NCBI RefSeq assembly: GCF_012911565.1
Contig: NZ_JAAMPU010000105.1
Location: 186,001-250,000 of the forward strand
From: Flavobacterium silvaticum
GTDB lineage: Bacteria; Bacteroidota; Bacteroidia; Flavobacteriales; Flavobacteriaceae
Length of the DNA: 64,000 nt
Direction: 5' to 3'
The position numbers were made by a program, and so were the translations under genes. Under the pieces are notes generated by a model, which saw only the letters and a program-made list of their open reading frames with translations, was not told where the DNA came from and ran no database searches. The number at the start of each line of letters is the position of its first letter. The stretch's first letter is position 1. Below are positions 46,482 to 54,105 of this stretch, in pieces.

Positions 46482-46555
46482 GGCGTCGTGGCCGAGTGGC
46501 TAGGCCGGGCTCTGCAAAAGCTCTTACAGCGGTTCGAATCCGCTCGATGCCTCCA
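46482..46555 (+). tRNA. tRNA-Cys (GCA), CCA encoded
   Basis: The acceptor arm GGCGTCG (46482-46488) pairs with CGATGCC (46545-46551), with one G-U. The anticodon stem is GGGCT/AGCTC and the loop CTGCAAA, giving GCA at 46514-46516. The T-arm is AGCGG-TTCGAAT-CCGCT. T is the discriminator base and CCA is present at 46553-46555. All four arms fold, so this is sound. Confidence 0.96.
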
Positions 46556-46986: not shown

Positions 46987-46994
46987 CAAAGATA
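46987..46994 (-). promoter_or_regulatory. folB: Putative folB -7 element
   Basis: TATCTTTG on the minus strand, 29 bases before the ATG at 46957. It lies outside the adjoining repeat element. Confidence 0.5.
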
Positions 46995-47018
46995 AGGTTT
47001 CAATTCGACCCGATTGCC

Positions 47019-47155
47019 TAGCCCCGATGGACGCGGCAGCCTTTTGAAAAAGCGCCGGATTTGTTGCCCAAATGTGCAGCGACCCCGGGAGCTCTCGACA
47101 TTTGGCCGCAACAAACCACGATTTGAGAAAGCTATAGCAGACAGCGGGATTAGCT
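47019..47155 (+). repeat. Hairpin intergenic repeat, copy 1
   Basis: About 137 bp between folB and glnS. It begins TAGCCCCGATGG and ends GCGGGATTAGCT. Inner arms TTTGTTGC/CAAATGT (47060-47075) and ACATTTG/GCAACAAA (47098-47115) give a long hairpin whose loop holds AGCGACC and AGCTC. A 17-base word, GGCAGCCTTTTGAAAAA (47035-47051), recurs exactly in copy 2 on the other strand (54022-54038), as do GCTATAGC and the loop words. It is non-coding; an open frame running through it into glnS is not a gene extension. Confidence 0.85.
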
Positions 47156-47200
47156 TCAAATACTTACAATCTTCCGAACCACTAACTTCCGAACTTTCCC

Positions 47201-47208
47201 TACCTTTG
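47201..47208 (+). promoter_or_regulatory. glnS: Putative glnS -7 element
   Basis: TACCTTTG fits TAnnTTTG and lies 18 bases before the glnS ATG, after the repeat. Confidence 0.55.
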
Positions 47209-47226
47209 CACTTTCAAAATGCTATC

Positions 47227-49269
47227 ATGTCAGAAGAAAAATCGCTCAATTTCCTTGAGCAAATCATAGAAGATGATTTAACGAACGGATTGCCGCAAAG
47301 CAAATTACGGTTCCGTTTTCCGCCAGAACCTAACGGCTATCTGCATATTGGACATGCGAGTTCCATTGCACTAAATTTTGGGCTTGGCGAATCCTATAAC
47401 GCACCCGTAAATCTTCGTTTTGACGATACGAACCCGGAAAAAGAGGAACAGGAATTTGTCGATTCCATCAAGAAAGACGTGGAATGGCTGGGTTATTCCT
47501 GGGCTGAGGAACGTTATGCTTCTGATTATTTTCAGCAACTTTACGATTGGACAGTCGAATTGATAAAGAAAGGTAAAGCTTATGTTGACAGTCAATCTTC
47601 TGAAGAAATTGCAGAACAAAAAGGAACACCGACACAACCTGGAATAGCAGGACCTTATCGCGACAGATCTGTAGCAGAAAATTTGGATTTGTTCGAACGT
47701 ATGAAGAACGGCGAGTTTCCGGATGGAGCTCATATTGTGCGTGCCAAAATCGATATGACATCTCCGAATATGCTCATGCGTGATCCATTGATGTACAGAA
47801 TCATGCACAAACACCACCACAGAACCGGCGACGATTGGTGCATTTACCCTATGTATGACTGGGCTCACGGTGAAAGCGATTATCTCGAACAGATTTCCCA
47901 TTCGCTTTGTACGCTTGAATTTTTGCCGCACCGTGAATTGTACGATTGGTTCCTCGACCAGATTTTTGACGATAAGAAAGTGCGTCCGAAACAACGTGAA
48001 TTCGCCAGACGTAACCTGAGCCACACGGTTGTTTCCAAGCGGAAATTGCTCAAACTGGTTACTGAAAATTTCGTTTCCGGCTGGGACGATCCGCGTATGT
48101 CAACTATTTCGGGTATGCGCAGACGTGGCTATACGGCAGCTTCACTTAGGAATTTTGCCAATACGATCGGGATTGCAAAACGCGATAACCTGATCAATGT
48201 GTCGCTGTTGGAATTCTGCATCCGTGAAGATTTGAATAAAATTGCGCCTCGGGTTATGGCGGTCATCGATCCGGTGAAACTCATCATTACGAATTATCCC
48301 GAAGGAAAAGAGGAATGGCTTGAAGCTGAAAACAATCCGGAAGATGAGAATGCCGGTTTCAGGAAAGTACCATTTTCAAGAGAAATCTACATTGAGCGCG
48401 AAGACTTTATGGAAGAAGCGCCAGCCAAGTTTTTCAGGTTGTCGATAGGAAAAGAAGTGCGTTTAAAGAATGGCTATATTATTCAGGGAGAAGCTGTTGT
48501 AAAGGATTCCGACGGAAATACCACAGAAATTCACGCCACGTATGATCCGGAAAGTCTATCCGGAAGCGGAACCGAAGCCAGCCAGCGTAAAGTGGCCGGA
48601 ACACTACATTGGGTCAGCTCTGCTCACGCATTGCCAGCAGAAGTCCGTTTGTATGACAGGTTGTTCACAGACGAATCTCCCGATACACATAAAGGAAAAG
48701 ATTTCCTCGATTTCGTGAATCCGGATTCGTTGAAAGTGGTTCATGCTTTCGTTGAACCGAGTTTGAAATCTGCTGTAAACGAAGACAAATTCCAATTCCA
48801 ACGCATCGGATATTTTACGGTAGATAAAGATTCGACTGCTGATAAGCTGGTATTTAACAAAACCGTCGGGCTTAAGGATGCGTGGGAGGAAAAAGGCAAG
48901 AAAGAAGAAAACCTGGTCAATAATTCGCTCAAAGAAATTAACAGGTATTTTAAATCGGCTTCAGATTCGGATAGGGATGACATTGAAAAGGCCATTGCAG
49001 CGAATATCGCCTCACTTGAAAATTTCAGCCTGATCCAGAATTCACTTCGAAAAAATATCGATAACAATAAAAGTGCACTGCTTTTTGCCAACTGGCTCCT
49101 TACCTATTCGGCTCATGTAAAACTTGACGATCTTGAAGATGACCAGCAATTGAAATTTGCAGGAATGAGTTTGAAAAGTGACAACCTGGTTCGTGAAGCT
49201 TTTTACAAGTTGGCAGATAAAGAACAAATCATAAAAGACAAGTTCAAAGATTTGCTTTTGGATAATTAA
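47227..49269 (+). CDS. glnS: Glutamine-tRNA ligase with C-terminal extension
   Basis: 680 residues from the ATG at 47227, reading MSEEKSLNFLEQ. Class I synthetase: FPPEPNGYLHIGHA with HIGH at 40-43, and the KMSKS counterpart VVSKR at 268-272. The beta-barrel anticodon-binding region runs to about residue 555. The final 120 residues (KEENLVNNSLKEINRYFKS to the end) go beyond the length of the E. coli enzyme; in Bacteroidota this position often carries a YqeY-like fusion, but the match here is not clear by eye. A -7 element TACCTTTG is 18 bases upstream. Confidence 0.93.
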   Translation: MSEEKSLNFLEQIIEDDLTNGLPQSKLRFRFPPEPNGYLHIGHASSIALNFGLGESYNAPVNLRFDDTNPEKEEQEFVDSIKKDVEWLGYSWAEERYASDYFQQLYDWTVELIKKGKAYVDSQSSEEIAEQKGTPTQPGIAGPYRDRSVAENLDLFERMKNGEFPDGAHIVRAKIDMTSPNMLMRDPLMYRIMHKHHHRTGDDWCIYPMYDWAHGESDYLEQISHSLCTLEFLPHRELYDWFLDQIFDDKKVRPKQREFARRNLSHTVVSKRKLLKLVTENFVSGWDDPRMSTISGMRRRGYTAASLRNFANTIGIAKRDNLINVSLLEFCIREDLNKIAPRVMAVIDPVKLIITNYPEGKEEWLEAENNPEDENAGFRKVPFSREIYIEREDFMEEAPAKFFRLSIGKEVRLKNGYIIQGEAVVKDSDGNTTEIHATYDPESLSGSGTEASQRKVAGTLHWVSSAHALPAEVRLYDRLFTDESPDTHKGKDFLDFVNPDSLKVVHAFVEPSLKSAVNEDKFQFQRIGYFTVDKDSTADKLVFNKTVGLKDAWEEKGKKEENLVNNSLKEINRYFKSASDSDRDDIEKAIAANIASLENFSLIQNSLRKNIDNNKSALLFANWLLTYSAHVKLDDLEDDQQLKFAGMSLKSDNLVREAFYKLADKEQIIKDKFKDLLLDN

Positions 49270-49294
49270 AAACACCAAATCAATTTTATTTATA

Positions 49295-49322
49295 AAGAGC
49301 CGGCTAACAAAAGTCGGCTCTT
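49295..49322 (+). terminator. glnS terminator
   Basis: AAGAGCCGGCT (49295-49305) and AGTCGGCTCTT (49312-49322) pair over 11 bp with one G-T, followed by a T-rich stretch. Confidence 0.8.
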
Positions 49323-49408
49323 ATTATTTAAAAAATCTATGAAAAAAATAAATCGATAGTTTTTTACTTTTAAAAACGGATCGTATATTTTGCTTCTGAG
49401 CGACTTTT

Positions 49409-49436
49409 TTGAAATTGTCGATTTCTGATACATTTG
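49409..49436 (+). promoter_or_regulatory. Putative ytxH promoter
   Basis: TTG (49409-49411), a 17-base spacer and TACATTTG (49429-49436). The implied 5' leader is about 120 bases. Confidence 0.6.
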
Positions 49437-49485
49437 TAAAAATTTAGTTCATCAGATTTACGCTAATGAATTTTCGTTCATTTTA

Positions 49486-49542
49486 ACCTAAAAATGGCAT
49501 CTTCAAAATCGCTTCGGTTCAAATTTTAGGTAACTTTAGGTT
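49486..49542 (+). promoter_or_regulatory. Leader with alternative pairings before ytxH
   Basis: ACCTAAAA (49486-49493) can pair with TTTTAGGT (49524-49531), and the overlapping AACCTAAA (49485-49492) with TTTAGGTT (49535-49542), giving two mutually exclusive stems. A protein-binding operator is another reading. Confidence 0.4.
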
Positions 49543-49565
49543 CCTAATTAAAAACACAAAAAATC

Positions 49566-49901
49566 ATGGCTGGAAATTCAAAAGCGGTTGCGGCACTTTT
49601 ACTCGGAGCTGTCATTGGAGCGGGACTTGGAATTTTGTTCGCTCCTGAAAAAGGATCGGACACCCGAAAAAAGATAAAAGATGGATTCGATGATAAAAAA
49701 GATGAACTGAAAGACAAAGCTGATAAACTGGCGTCGTCACTGAAATCTAAATTCAGCAGTTCAAAGGCAGATCTGGAAACAGCTTTCGATGATCTTGCTT
49801 CGAACGTAGATGACAAAACCCAGGAAGTCGTCGCCACTTTGGAAAAGAAACTCGCCGATCTCAAAAAAGCCGCCGATTCATTCAAAGCGAAGACCACATA
49901 A
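49566..49901 (+). CDS. YtxH domain protein
   Basis: 111 residues. One N-terminal glycine-rich membrane segment (AVAALLLGAVIGAGLGILFAP) is followed by EKGSDTRKKIKDG and a long coiled coil rich in Lys, Asp and Ala. This is the YtxH layout, small stress-associated proteins of unknown exact role. In flavobacteria they are common and strongly expressed. A single-gene unit with its own promoter, a long leader and a terminator. Confidence 0.83.
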   Translation: MAGNSKAVAALLLGAVIGAGLGILFAPEKGSDTRKKIKDGFDDKKDELKDKADKLASSLKSKFSSSKADLETAFDDLASNVDDKTQEVVATLEKKLADLKKAADSFKAKTT

Positions 49902-49903
49902 AA

Positions 49904-49925
49904 AAAGAGGCCCTAAAGCCTCTTT
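49904..49925. terminator. Bidirectional terminator between ytxH and SPFH genes
   Basis: AAAGAGGC (49904-49911) and GCCTCTTT (49918-49925) pair over 8 bp, loop CCTAAA. Runs of A on one side and T on the other make it serve both convergent genes. Confidence 0.75.
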
Positions 49926-49926
49926 C

Positions 49927-50901
49927 TTATTTTTGTTCGGTATCGTCCTGATAGTCAGAATTCTTGTCTTCCCTACTCTTTCGATTCGTGTTTTTGATTT
50001 TCGTTTTCATGGCTTCACCAACCTGGTTCGAAGCGGCGAAAGAAACCACCATGTTATTGAGCATTTCACTTGCGGCCTGGGGAGAATTCGGCAACAGGAT
50101 CAGGTTTGAATTCGTATCGGAACCAATCGCCTGCAATGTATCGTAATGTTGTGTCACCACGATCAATGCCGAGGCTTCCTGGGAATTGATGCCAACATTA
50201 TTCAGTACTTCGACACTTTCTACCAAGCCACGTGCAATCTCGCGTCTTTGGTCTGCAATACCTTGACCCTGAAGTCTTTTGCTTTCTGCTTCGGCCTTTG
50301 CTTTGGCCACGATTCTAATGCGCTGGCTTTCTGCCTCGAATTCCGTTGCGGTCTTTTCACGGTCGGCGGCGTTGATCCGGTTCATGGCATTTTTGACCTG
50401 TATGTCCGGATCGATGTCTGTGACCAAAGTATTGATGATGTCGTATCCGTAAGTCGTCATGGCCTCGTTGAGTTCGCGTTTTACGGCGATGGCGATGTCG
50501 TCTTTTCGTTCAAAAACATCGTCTAGGATCAGTTTCGGAACCTCGGCACGCACCACATCAAACACATAAGCGGTAATCTGATCGTGCGGATATTCGAGTT
50601 TGTAAAAGGCATCATACACTTTTTCCTGTATCACCTTGAACTGGACAGAGACCTTCATCTTCACAAAAACATTGTCTTTTGTCTTGGTCTCGATGATTAC
50701 ATCAAGCTGTTGGATCTTAAGATTAACACGACCTGCAAGCCTGTCGATGATTGGAATCTTCATTTGCAGACCACTGTTCCTTACGCTGTGGAATTTTCCA
50801 AAACGTTCAATCACAACGGCACTTTGTTGCTTTACCGTAAAAAATGCTGCGAATAAAATAAATAGGGCAAATACTATTATGATAATAGTTGTAATTTCCA
50901 T
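49927..50901 (-). CDS. SPFH domain protein (stomatin/QmcA-like)
   Basis: 324 residues from the ATG at 50901, MEITTIIIIVFALFILFAAF. One N-terminal membrane helix leads to a band 7/SPFH domain with VIERFGKFHSVRNSGLQMKIP and TDIDPDIQVKNAMNRINAADREKTATEFEAE, then a coiled-coil arm. Such proteins form large membrane-associated oligomers and often support protease or lipid organisation. A longer frame from 50973 adds 24 residues with no signal and overlaps the divergent gene. No partner NfeD gene is adjacent. Confidence 0.87.
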   Translation of the reverse strand: MEITTIIIIVFALFILFAAFFTVKQQSAVVIERFGKFHSVRNSGLQMKIPIIDRLAGRVNLKIQQLDVIIETKTKDNVFVKMKVSVQFKVIQEKVYDAFYKLEYPHDQITAYVFDVVRAEVPKLILDDVFERKDDIAIAVKRELNEAMTTYGYDIINTLVTDIDPDIQVKNAMNRINAADREKTATEFEAESQRIRIVAKAKAEAESKRLQGQGIADQRREIARGLVESVEVLNNVGINSQEASALIVVTQHYDTLQAIGSDTNSNLILLPNSPQAASEMLNNMVVSFAASNQVGEAMKTKIKNTNRKSREDKNSDYQDDTEQK

Positions 50902-50964
50902 GATGTTGGTTTTATTTGTATTGCTGTAAATTACAAAAAAAGCGGCTTCTTTATCCCTATAACT

Positions 50965-51600
50965 ATGAGACATCTGATTTTGCCAATTGTAGCGCTATTT
51001 TCTTTCAACGCCTTTTCCCAAATGGATTACAAAGATTCGAACCGGATTGGTATTTTCGGGGGAATCACATCTTTCGATTTACAGACCAATGATTTCACGA
51101 ACAAATCCGGAATTGGGTGGACAGTAGGAGCGGGCATACGCGGAAATTTCTACAATGATTTCGACATGATCTACACAATCGGCTTCTTCGAAAGTAAGTT
51201 TTCAGCTCCAATTGCCCCGGTTGCGGGATTTCCAACCCAGGAAACGGACTTTAAGATCCAGGGTGTGCAGATTGCACTGATGCCAAGTTATAACATTGTA
51301 TACAACCACTTGTCAATTGAGGCGGGACCGGTATTTCAGGCAAACAGCAAATTAGGATATAAAAAAGACTTTGAAAATTATTATATGGACAAGCTTCCGT
51401 ATACGTTGAATGATATGGAAAAAGTAAATTCATTCAATTTTTTGGGTGCTGTTGGGTTTACTGCAGGTATCCGTGAGTTGCGTGCAAGCTTCAGGTATAT
51501 GTACGGATTTTCTAATTTTCTTGGTAAAATAGACCAGCCGGGAGCGAATTTCAAATCACATCCAAGTACGTTGGTCGGTACGCTTACGGTGTTTTTCTGA
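50965..51600 (+). CDS. Outer membrane beta-barrel protein
   Basis: 211 residues. Signal peptide MRHLILPIVALFSFNAFSQ, then alternating hydrophobic/polar strands with aromatic ends, such as GIFGGITSFDLQTND and TAGIRELRASFRYMYGF, ending in a C-terminal TVFF strand typical of outer membrane barrels. About eight strands would fit the length (OmpW/PorT-like small barrels). Its stop overlaps the next ATG (TGATG), so the two are coupled. Role unknown. Confidence 0.77.
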   Translation: MRHLILPIVALFSFNAFSQMDYKDSNRIGIFGGITSFDLQTNDFTNKSGIGWTVGAGIRGNFYNDFDMIYTIGFFESKFSAPIAPVAGFPTQETDFKIQGVQIALMPSYNIVYNHLSIEAGPVFQANSKLGYKKDFENYYMDKLPYTLNDMEKVNSFNFLGAVGFTAGIRELRASFRYMYGFSNFLGKIDQPGANFKSHPSTLVGTLTVFF

Positions 51601-52172
51601 TGAAATTAGTTGTCCAGATATTCGTATTGTTCTTTGGTTTTCAGATGGTTGCCCAACCAGTCTTATATCAAAAAGGTGGGAAGAAGCTAACGGTGAAATA
51701 TGTTATTTCAGATCCGAAAAAGACATTCGTAAAAGTGGAATCGGACGGAAAAATCTCCAAAATCAACAATTCAGAAATAGACTCCATCCGAATGGAAAAT
51801 CAATTGATGAAACCGATTCTGGACGGAAAAAAACCGAAGCTGTTTTTTATCATTTCCAAAAAAGGAAACCGGGAACTCGCTGTCAATAAAAGTGAAATAA
51901 TCAAGAATCGCGGCGGATTCGAATCGGTTCAAACCTTTTATAATTTAGTTGTTTCAGAAGATGGTAAGATTTCCAAGACGCTGACTTTTTCAAATAGCGA
52001 AACCGAAAAGGAAGTATCAAACCGAAACCAAATATTCTCTTTCATAACAGATAATTTTGCCGACTGTCCAAAAGTCACATCTCATTTCCAACTCTTTAAG
52101 AACGATACGGACAAACTGAATCTCACGATTCTGAATTATCTCGATAAGCCTGATACAGTGAAATGCAAATAA
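51600..52172 (+). CDS. Hypothetical secreted protein
   Basis: 190 residues. Signal peptide MKLVVQIFVLFFGFQMVAQ, then a Lys-rich beta-type body (QKGGKKLTVKYVISD, VKVESDGKISKINNSEIDS). I do not recognise the family. Coupled to the beta-barrel gene by a one-base overlap (TGATG) and ended by a strong terminator, so the two probably act together at the outer membrane, which is inference. Confidence 0.65.
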   Translation: MKLVVQIFVLFFGFQMVAQPVLYQKGGKKLTVKYVISDPKKTFVKVESDGKISKINNSEIDSIRMENQLMKPILDGKKPKLFFIISKKGNRELAVNKSEIIKNRGGFESVQTFYNLVVSEDGKISKTLTFSNSETEKEVSNRNQIFSFITDNFADCPKVTSHFQLFKNDTDKLNLTILNYLDKPDTVKCK

Positions 52173-52199
52173 AAAAGCTCCTTTTTACGGGAGCTTTTT
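52172..52199 (+). terminator. Terminator after the barrel/secreted pair
   Basis: AAAAAGCTCC (52172-52181) and GGAGCTTTTT (52190-52199) pair over 10 bp with an 8-base loop. It also lies right at the end of the convergent gltX. Confidence 0.85.
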
Positions 52200-52201
52200 C
52201 T

Positions 52202-53707
52202 TTATAAGTTGGCAATGGCATATTTGATCCTGCGGATGCTTTCGTCTTTGCCAATCAGTTCCAGAATGTCATACAAATGAATGCCTTTCATGCTTCCTAC
52301 AAGGCTCACGCGCAACGGTTGCATGATTTTTCCAATCCCGATTCCATTCGCTGCCGCCCAATCTTTTACATAGGTTTCCAATGCCGATGCGTCAAACCCA
52401 GGTGCATTTTCCAACAATTGGAATAATTGGCTCATGATTTCCGCCGATTGATCGTTCCATTTTTTGGCGGCTCCTTCTTCAAATGTTTCCGGCGCCACAA
52501 AAAGGTAATCGGATAATTCCCAGAATTCAGATACAAAATGTGCGCGGTCTTTTATAAGGGAAACGATGCGTTCTGCTTTTTCAGGTGAAATTGAAATCCC
52601 TTTTTCAGACAGTATTTCCAGATAGTACTCCGCCAGTTCCGAATCTGGTTTTCCAACGAGATATTGATGGTTGAACCACTTATTTTTATCCGGATTGAAC
52701 TTCGCACCGGCTTTGTGCACGCGTTCCAGATCAAAAGATTGTGCCAATTCATCTAATGTGAAAAGCTCTTTTTCCGTTCCGTCGTTCCAGCCCAAAAGAG
52801 CAAGGAAATTGACTACGGCTTCGGGGAAATATCCGTTTTCGCGATAGCCCGATGATATGCCTTCAGCTGTCTTCCATTCGAGTGGAAACACCGGAAAGCC
52901 CATTTTGTCGCCGTCGCGTTTGGACAATTTTCCATTTCCGATTGGCTTTAGGATCAACGGCAAATGCGCGAATTCAGGCGCCTGCCAACCGAAAGATTTA
53001 TACAGCAAGGCGTGGAGCGGGAGAGAAGGCAGCCATTCTTCACCGCGTATTACGTGAGACGTTTCCATTAAATGATCATCCACAATATTAGCCAGATGAT
53101 AGGTCGGCATGCCATCGCTTTTGAACAAAACCTTATCGTCGAGCAAATTCGTATCGAACTTAATTTCACCCCGGATCAAATCAGTAAGGATTAACGTTTC
53201 TCCTTCCGGAATCTTAAACCGGATTACATATTCGGCCCCATTTTCCAGGCGCTCTTTCGTTTGGGTCGCAGTCAGCGCCAACGAATTGTCAAGTACGTCG
53301 CGAACGGAATGATTGTATATGAATGTATTCCCATTAGCCTCGGCACTTTTGCGAAGGTTATCGAGACTTTCAGCCGAATCGAATGCATAATAGGCATGAC
53401 CCAATTCCACCAATCTATCTGCGTATTCGCGGTACATTTCCTTGCGCTCGCTTTGTCTGTACGGCCCGAATTTTTCATTCTTCCCAACGGTTTCGGAAGG
53501 TGAAATCCCCAGCCATTCCAAAGCCTCGAAAATATAGGCTTCGGCACCGGGAACGAACCGATTCTGGTCGGTATCTTCAATACGAAGGTAGAATGTCCCG
53601 CCGTGTTTTTTGGCGAACAAATAATTGAAAAGAGCCGTACGGACACCGCCAATATGGAGCGGGCCTGTCGGGCTTGGCGCAAATCGAACGCGAACTGGTC
53701 TTGGCAT
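52202..53707 (-). CDS. gltX: Glutamate-tRNA ligase
   Basis: 501 residues from the ATG at 53707. Class I synthetase: FAPSPTGPLHIGG (9-21) is the HIGH region and KLSKR at 260-264 the KMSKS counterpart. The C-terminal helical part binds the anticodon. It charges tRNA-Glu; glnS also exists here, so an indirect glutamine route is not needed. The frame extends to an ATG at 53725, but TATCTTTG at 53723-53730 would overlap it and transcription would start after it, so 53707 is the start. Confidence 0.96.
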   Translation of the reverse strand: MPRPVRVRFAPSPTGPLHIGGVRTALFNYLFAKKHGGTFYLRIEDTDQNRFVPGAEAYIFEALEWLGISPSETVGKNEKFGPYRQSERKEMYREYADRLVELGHAYYAFDSAESLDNLRKSAEANGNTFIYNHSVRDVLDNSLALTATQTKERLENGAEYVIRFKIPEGETLILTDLIRGEIKFDTNLLDDKVLFKSDGMPTYHLANIVDDHLMETSHVIRGEEWLPSLPLHALLYKSFGWQAPEFAHLPLILKPIGNGKLSKRDGDKMGFPVFPLEWKTAEGISSGYRENGYFPEAVVNFLALLGWNDGTEKELFTLDELAQSFDLERVHKAGAKFNPDKNKWFNHQYLVGKPDSELAEYYLEILSEKGISISPEKAERIVSLIKDRAHFVSEFWELSDYLFVAPETFEEGAAKKWNDQSAEIMSQLFQLLENAPGFDASALETYVKDWAAANGIGIGKIMQPLRVSLVGSMKGIHLYDILELIGKDESIRRIKYAIANL

Positions 53708-53722
53708 TTGTAGAAATTTTTG

Positions 53723-53730
53723 CAAAGATA
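53723..53730 (-). promoter_or_regulatory. gltX: Putative gltX -7 element
   Basis: TATCTTTG on the minus strand, 16 bases before the ATG at 53707. It fixes the start codon. Confidence 0.6.
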
Positions 53731-53914
53731 TACTAGTCGTCAGTCAAATGAAGAAAGCGAAGCACTAAAACATAAATTGCCCGGATTAAACTATAATTAT
53801 TTAGCAAATTAAGCCTGTTTACAAAAATCGCGTTTACAAAATTTTGTAAACGACTCATACGTAAACATTTTTTCGGCACTGCTCGACAATTCGTGCTTTT
53901 AGCTTCACATTTAG

Positions 53915-54055
53915 GAGCTGTTCCGGCTGTGCGCTATAGCTTTTTTGAAAACTGCCGCAATTTCAACGCGCTTCGGGAGCTTCCGTTGGTCGCTCCTTCG
54001 CTGCGGCAATTGCAGGCGGTTTTTTTCAAAAGGCTGCCACTTCCATCACGGGCTA
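53915..54055 (-). repeat. Hairpin intergenic repeat, copy 2 (inverted)
   Basis: About 140 bp between divergent gltX and the DUF4175 gene. Read on the minus strand it begins TAGCCCGTGATGGAAG and shares with copy 1 the exact 17-base word GGCAGCCTTTTGAAAAA, the palindrome GCTATAGC (53933-53940) and the loop motif AGCGACC..AGCTC (53974-53994). The inner arms differ in sequence but again pair (ACTGCC-GCAATT with AATTGC-GGCGGT), so the fold, not the sequence, is kept. The rest of 53731-54140 holds nothing else I can name. Confidence 0.85.
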
Positions 54056-54105
54056 GGCTGCTTTTCCATCAACAATCCCTTAACATATATTAAAACCGAA
54101 ATCCT

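Follow-up and report, generated by a model that had tools for sequence, protein, structure and literature searches.

Two inverted hairpins of ~145 nt, lying in the divergent spacers folB/glnS and gltX/DUF4175 of Flavobacterium silvaticum, appear from their sequence to belong with the Flavo-1 family as a long variant, although they formally score below the family cut-off, and their fold is kept by compensatory change in a dispersed set of copies. The explanation that we tentatively place first is that of an old family, mostly inherited in place within intergenic spacers, in which the element would act as a folded single strand of TAGCCC polarity whatever the direction of the neighbouring gene. 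This strand would most likely be RNA, and a protein is probably bound at the conserved base and apex. The features are listed in Table 1, where the window is the whole stretch of 64,000 nucleotides that was analysed.

Table 1. Positions of the two elements, their modules and nearby promoter-like words in the window
Feature	Position	Strand	Location	Basis
Long Flavo-1-type element, copy 1	47016..47158	+	between folB (-) and glnS (+)	RF01705, R1
Long Flavo-1-type element, copy 2	53913..54058	-	between gltX (-) and DUF4175 (+)	RF01705, R1
Apical module of copy 1, AGCGACCCCGGGAGCTC, degenerate form of AGCGACCAACGGAAGCTC	47078..47094	+		read from sequence
Apical module of copy 2, AGCGACCAACGGAAGCTC, exact consensus	53977..53994	-		apical-word scan (G000:C104:239977-239994)
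Shared 17-mer GGCAGCCTTTTGAAAAA, copy 1	47035..47051	+		script check
Shared 17-mer GGCAGCCTTTTGAAAAA, copy 2	54022..54038	-		script check
GCTATAGC, 3' base module of copy 1	47131..47138	+		script check
GCTATAGC, 3' base module of copy 2	53933..53940	-		script check
TAnnTTTG word (predicted promoter word)	47201..47208	+	away from copy 1 towards glnS	exact-word scan
TAnnTTTG word (predicted promoter word)	46987..46994	-	away from copy 1 towards folB	exact-word scan

The preliminary description had recognized two hairpins on opposite strands upstream of glnS and DUF4175, with a shared 17-mer, the words GCTATAGC, AGCGACC and AGCTC in common, and inner arms that differ but pair. These claims stood. 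Direct reading and a script found the 17-mer together with AAAGCTATAGC and GCCTAGCCC in both copies, the script located GCTATAGC, AGCGACC and AGCTC in each, and the arms of the two hairpins differ yet pair. Pfam matches for the neighbours were FolB and, for both synthetases, tRNA-synt_1c; the DUF4175 match was slightly below its cut-off (26.7 vs 27.3). The word TAnnTTTG, which we take to be the -7-like promoter word of the Bacteroidetes consensus, reads away from copy 1 on both sides, so that copy 1 may lie outside both neighbouring transcripts if these predicted promoters are used. An exact scan of the gltX-DUF4175 spacer from position 53726 found no such word. This second spacer also holds, between gltX and copy 2, a palindrome GTTTACAAAATTTTGTAAAC with further GTTTAC half-sites (window 53814-53873), and stretches 84% identical to it occur at G000:C106:9546-9607, C106:14874-14935 and C99:172181-172231. 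A tRNA gene (Rfam RF00005, window 46482-46552) separates folB from a LysE-type translocator gene.

Taken singly, the own-strand folds are modest relative to dinucleotide shuffles (z -1.22 for copy 1 and -0.99 for copy 2), and for both copies the complement folds better than the element strand, by 1.6 kcal/mol for copy 1 (-46.1 vs -44.5) and by 9.0 kcal/mol for copy 2 (-54.8 vs -45.8). The evidence for structure is the comparison of many copies and not any single fold.

The Rfam model for Flavo-1 (RF01705) matched copy 1 at 47016-47155 (40.8 bits, E 2.7e-5) and copy 2 at 53916-54058 (39.5 bits, E 6.5e-5), in both cases just under the curated gathering score of 42 bits and with model positions 1-76 aligned in full. 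Seventeen further matches were found in the genome, 8 of them at or above the 42-bit cut-off. The Flavo-1 base module, TAGCC...GATnGnAGcGG, is present in both window copies with its pairing and internal loops, and helix 1 is 97.7% paired in 37 copies from this genome and 98.8% paired in 101 copies from relatives. The window copies do not have the short top of the family, and their matches to the 76 model positions extend over 140 and 143 nt; we therefore call them a long variant of Flavo-1.

The long form combines the Flavo-1 base with variable arms and a conserved apex in an architecture of 146 nt. The base consists of TAGCCCnGATG.. with ..AGCnGGAnnAGCTTC and contains conserved purine mismatches, and the apex has the consensus AGC-GA-CC-AAC-GG-AA-GCT. 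The arms, ~35-40 nt each, vary in sequence and keep their length and pairing. For the 38 of 48 own-genome copies that were laid out (10 were left out), the left arm measured 36-39 nt in all 38 and the right arm 35-39 nt in 37, the remaining one being 44 nt. Ends and tops are found in several combinations, including a second, GCGTGAG-like end type and both short and long tops. Six long copies of this genome (L040, L041, L042, L049, L065 and L067) carry a third end type, in which CGAATTGGCGAAGC- or TTCGCTTTGCTCGGG-like words replace TAGCCC.

The proposal of a dispersed hairpin family was confirmed. Further copies are numerous both here and in relatives, and the outcome that had been named as refuting it, an absence of other copies or of preserved pairing, did not occur. 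The apical word, allowing up to 3 mismatches, had 50 matches in the genome compared with 2 for a reversed control pattern, which excludes chance. One match, L059, was dropped because the base words were not nearby, and 48 rows remained. From these, 37 copies were aligned, leaving out 11 duplicate, truncated or odd-ended copies, and used to build a long-form model called R1. Both window copies are in its training set, and they score 74.4 bits (copy 1) and 94.9 bits (copy 2). With 150 of 1007 candidates scored, R1 found at least 108 places in this genome (E<=0.01), a total that includes short forms; among those picked up were several of the short Flavo-1 copies matched by Rfam. Named relatives of GlnS, a set that may lack records very close to the window's genome, indicate Flavobacterium as the genus. 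Across the genus, scanned with stricter filters and 51 candidates scored per genome, R1 matched in 53 of 61 genomes, own included, and in none of the remaining 8 (E<=0.001). With 20 candidates scored for each genome of the order, matches were obtained in 56 of 156 genomes and 13 of 55 genera, and a fuller scan of three genomes gave 55 to 108 matches.

The two spacers of the window were also compared among 80 named glnS loci, of which, by protein matches, 69 hold the folB-glnS spacer and 66 the gltX-DUF4175 spacer. R1 detected three short forms in the 80 loci, two in F. soli and one in F. croceum. No copy was found in the folB-glnS spacer of the 69 loci, and the gltX-DUF4175 spacer had a copy in 1 of 66, a short form in F. 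soli (L203:16178-16262) that is oriented like copy 2. The short form in F. soli and the long form in the window at one spacer may reflect an exchange of tops or a separate arrival. A further 58 loci from the two neighbourhood searches gave no R1 match. With no copy in one spacer and a single short form in the other, the elements must have dispersed in the past.

The preliminary description had also held that compensating change keeps the fold, and both covariation and orthologous sites bear this out. In a MAFFT alignment of 37 own copies there were 439 two-sided cells, whereas shuffling gave 181 and slid structures no more than 215. The 101 copies from relatives gave 1195 two-sided cells, compared with 353 shuffled and at most 312 for slid structures, in an alignment that was made to the R1 model, leans to the structure and does not contain 9 of the fetched loci. 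The pair counts omit one 90-nt match from relatives and one 101-nt own match. The relatives' loci are best-scoring matches, which biases them towards good folds, and 18 lower-scoring copies served as a check. Orthology was assigned by masked flanks and placed 60 of 100 relatives' copies in 23 sets. Orientation is the same in 62 orthologous locus pairs, of which 42 match on both flanks, and opposite in 2. For an independent test we took from each set a single pair whose flanks match on both sides and whose elements are at least 0.80 identical, which left 13 sets. These contained 48 double changes, compared with 9.0 expected if the two sides changed independently, and 42 of the 48 keep the pair while 6 do not. 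Among single changes, 19 keep and 26 break the pair. Since random copies from relatives are 64% identical, the orthologous pairs are not chance look-alikes. The fold is thus kept by compensatory change, including in place at orthologous sites.

Complementary arms could also arise without function, if the elements were quasi-palindromes in which template switching during replication copies one arm from the other and so keeps the two complementary. This reading fits the excess of kept doubles among all 42 both-flank pairs, which are not independent (218 kept doubles vs 65 kept and 83 broken singles), as well as the closeness of G-U to A-C counts in the window's own genome described below. We nevertheless consider it improbable given the conserved unpaired purines, the near-constant arm length, and the strong excess of G-U over A-C in relatives, which copying would not give.

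The preliminary description had interpreted the elements as mobile and non-autonomous and had suggested a search for a RAYT-type tyrosine transposase. A hairpin of this general kind (REP/BIME-, MITE- or IS200/605-like), mobilized in trans by a transposase and needing its fold to transpose, would account for at least 108 dispersed places in this genome, for the folB-glnS spacer lacking a copy in 69 named loci, and for the modular forms with short or long tops and other ends. It would also fit L183 compared with L181 and L284, where one spacer with 68-70% identical flanks holds the element in opposite orientation. The transposase search, which covered the Y1_Tnp family (PF01797), gave no match in this genome. 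Within the genus, Y1_Tnp was present in 40 of 61 genomes, own included, without association with the element (35 of the 53 genomes with R1 matches and 5 of the 8 without), and R1 had no match in 8 Y1_Tnp loci. No excess of target-site duplications was detected in 179 paired flanks, where 12 repeats of at least 5 were reached by 114 of 200 shuffles and 40 repeats of at least 4 by 39 of 200. The 53 long rows of this genome, in which one place occurs twice, have a mean identity of 0.54, and the highest value between distinct copies is 0.77. RAYT-type mobility was rejected on these grounds and the earlier claim found no support, with 60 of 100 relatives' copies orthologous; RAYT mobility in the narrow sense is already refuted here. 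Together with vertical inheritance and in-place compensation, these observations leave the broader mobile reading rather unlikely.

Two observations were made at individual loci of relatives. The flanks of the G031 Y1_Tnp locus L197 match those of element loci L180 and L192 (G025 and G047), and R1 found no copy in L197. In G042, the sets L402-L404 and L405-L406 are identical-scoring copies that by eye also share their near flanks; they are apparently pieces of larger repeats, and recent short-form transposition was rejected for them.

We probed the strand on which the fold is maintained by counting G-U and A-C at consensus pairs with at least 60% Watson-Crick cells. The GU:AC ratio was 149:24 in 100 copies from relatives and 35:9 in the 18 lower-scoring copies of two genomes, G010 and G042. 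A simple register of the apical helix, which uses no model, gave 50:0 in 95 relatives' copies and only 4:1 in 15 lower-scoring copies. By RNA fold energy the element strand was better in 95 of the 100 relatives' copies and the complement in 4, and the corresponding numbers for the 18 lower-scoring copies were 14 and 4. The large excess of G-U over A-C implies that one strand is folded, as RNA or as single-stranded DNA. The relatives' ratio is alike in sense (24:4), antisense ('--', 78:12), convergent (22:4) and divergent (19:2) contexts, which indicates that, in relatives, neighbouring mRNAs are not where the fold is under selection.

The strand signal is weak in the window's genome itself, where 52 distinct copies gave GU:AC 67:51, the best 28 copies 37:26 and the simple register 17:11, and where fold energy favored the element strand in 35 of the 52 and the complement in 17. 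Over the four gene contexts the ratios were 29:16, 15:15, 6:8 and 9:12. L002 and L027 are one place that is counted twice in the own-genome figures by context, for the best 28 copies and simple register, and for stop codons. In a folding test that disallowed G-U, with 3 of 48 own rows left out, this genome gave GT 19 and AC 28 and the relatives 56:43, where a conserved C.A position (44 cells, columns 27/133) can explain much of the AC count. Constraint looks relaxed in the window's own genome, or else the selected form could differ there.

In relatives the elements also show a bias in position and orientation. Gene contexts came from a home-made ORF rule, which called copy 1 tandem although it is divergent. 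Among long copies of relatives, 48 are antisense to both neighbours vs 16 sense, or 24 vs 11 with one per orthologous set (p 0.04); the own genome displayed no orientation bias (16 and 18 for the two settings). In relatives, 35 of 63 cases have a stop codon that overlaps the 3' end of the element or is no more than 15 nt away, compared with 7 of 32 for the 5' end, and the difference persists when orthologs are collapsed (19 of 33 vs 4 of 21, p 0.01). For the lower-scoring copies the figures were 3 of 9 and 1 of 5, and for this genome 9 of 24 and 6 of 24.

BIMEs of E. coli form 3'-UTR hairpins that contribute to mRNA stability or partial termination, and a gene-end mRNA element of this type would match the stop codons near the 3' end in relatives and the better folding of the complement of both window copies. 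The mRNA at these gene ends would, however, carry the reverse complement, while selection in relatives acts on the other strand, as seen in the antisense copies. The stop-codon figures of the own genome, the position of both window copies in divergent spacers and the runs that follow the element, which are of A rather than T, also argue against a 3'-UTR hairpin, and we regard it as unlikely. An A5 run follows the element in 73 of 158 copies, whereas a T5 run occurs within 30 nt of the hairpin in only 16 of 158. Since TAnnTTTG was not enriched upstream on the element strand either, an own promoter or intrinsic terminator was rejected. An upstream motif noticed by eye, TTTTGAAAA, was likewise discarded, as just 6 of 101 flanks from relatives had it and none of the 54 own flanks did.

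In the one-contig genomes G010 and G042, origin and terminus were located by GC skew in 20 stretches each, leaving out 1 long and 14 short copies in unclear zones. Long copies were oriented against the replication fork in 26 of 31 cases (p 0.0002) and short copies in 40 of 64 (p 0.06), in a comparison where fork and gene direction are confounded. This orientation is compatible with folded single-stranded DNA acting at replication or recombination by an attC-like logic, in which extrahelical bases and free arms would serve a recombinase or replication protein. The gene-independent strand polarity in relatives agrees with such a role, as do arms that are free in sequence but paired, and the lack of a promoter. 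An excess of G-T over A-C is also expected for folded single-stranded DNA, more weakly, and the observed 149:24 fits RNA energetics better. The lagging-strand template is the strand most often single, and the bias places the element sequence off it. The bases of the attC core were not seen by eye. A single-stranded DNA role is a rather improbable alternative to the RNA proposed here.

Published accounts of Flavo-1 are brief. In the available parts of Weinberg et al. 2010 (PMC2864571) it is a probable RNA of Bacteroidetes, judged neither cis-regulatory nor a switch. The accessible text of PMC9723704 reports F. psychrophilum hits sense and antisense to transcribed regions, with many outside them, and gives no function; Flavo-1 is among abundant predicted sRNAs, without function, in the corresponding portion of PMC9029176, and is used as a test family in that of PMC3765529. 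The literature searched, partial text that mostly excluded subscription papers, held no functional account of Flavo-1 and no mention of a long form.

The window elements share with Flavo-1 (RF01705) the base module, internal loops and many intergenic copies in Flavobacteria in both orientations, the last also seen in the available text of PMC9723704. They differ in that the Rfam top is short and the window form ~70 nt longer, with near-fixed arms and a conserved apical module. REP/BIME elements with their RAYTs are likewise dispersed intergenic hairpins, often beside stop codons (PMC12306157, as far as its available text goes). Unlike that system, the window genome has no Y1 match, and the Flavo-1 long form is much longer, with arms that are not conserved in sequence and are inherited with compensation. 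Integron attC sites resemble it in a structure that outlasts sequence, conserved unpaired bases, the importance of the strand and a replication bias; here no attC core was seen and the copies are single and dispersed. The BOX elements of Streptococcus pneumoniae are modular in the same way, base pairing with base around an exchangeable middle, whereas in the long form a single long hairpin, capped by its own apex, makes up the middle; this likeness is one of description.

Several observations run against the favored reading, that of an old family acting as a folded strand, probably RNA. In the window's own genome there is little polarity and no orientation bias, and the complement is the better-folding strand for the two window copies. 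The lower-scoring copies gave only 4:1 in the simple register, no promoter or terminator belonging to the elements was found, and the hits in the accessible part of PMC9723704 occur in both senses, many outside transcribed regions. It is doubtful, on present evidence, that the elements amount to a kind of gene-boundary element undescribed in the literature searched, namely strand-specific RNAs found genus-wide, antisense at gene ends and against the fork, long held in place, with arms that drift but pair, exchangeable tops, and a partner shared through base and apex. Membership in Flavo-1 is itself ordinary; the long architecture and the evidence on one-strand constraint and position are new. 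Flavo-1 is a widespread predicted bacterial RNA, and its function becomes testable through the defined long architecture with a conserved apex, the evidence for a fold kept in place and, in relatives, on one strand, and the bias in position and orientation at gene ends. The issue is then less one of mobile DNA than of a folded element that is maintained.
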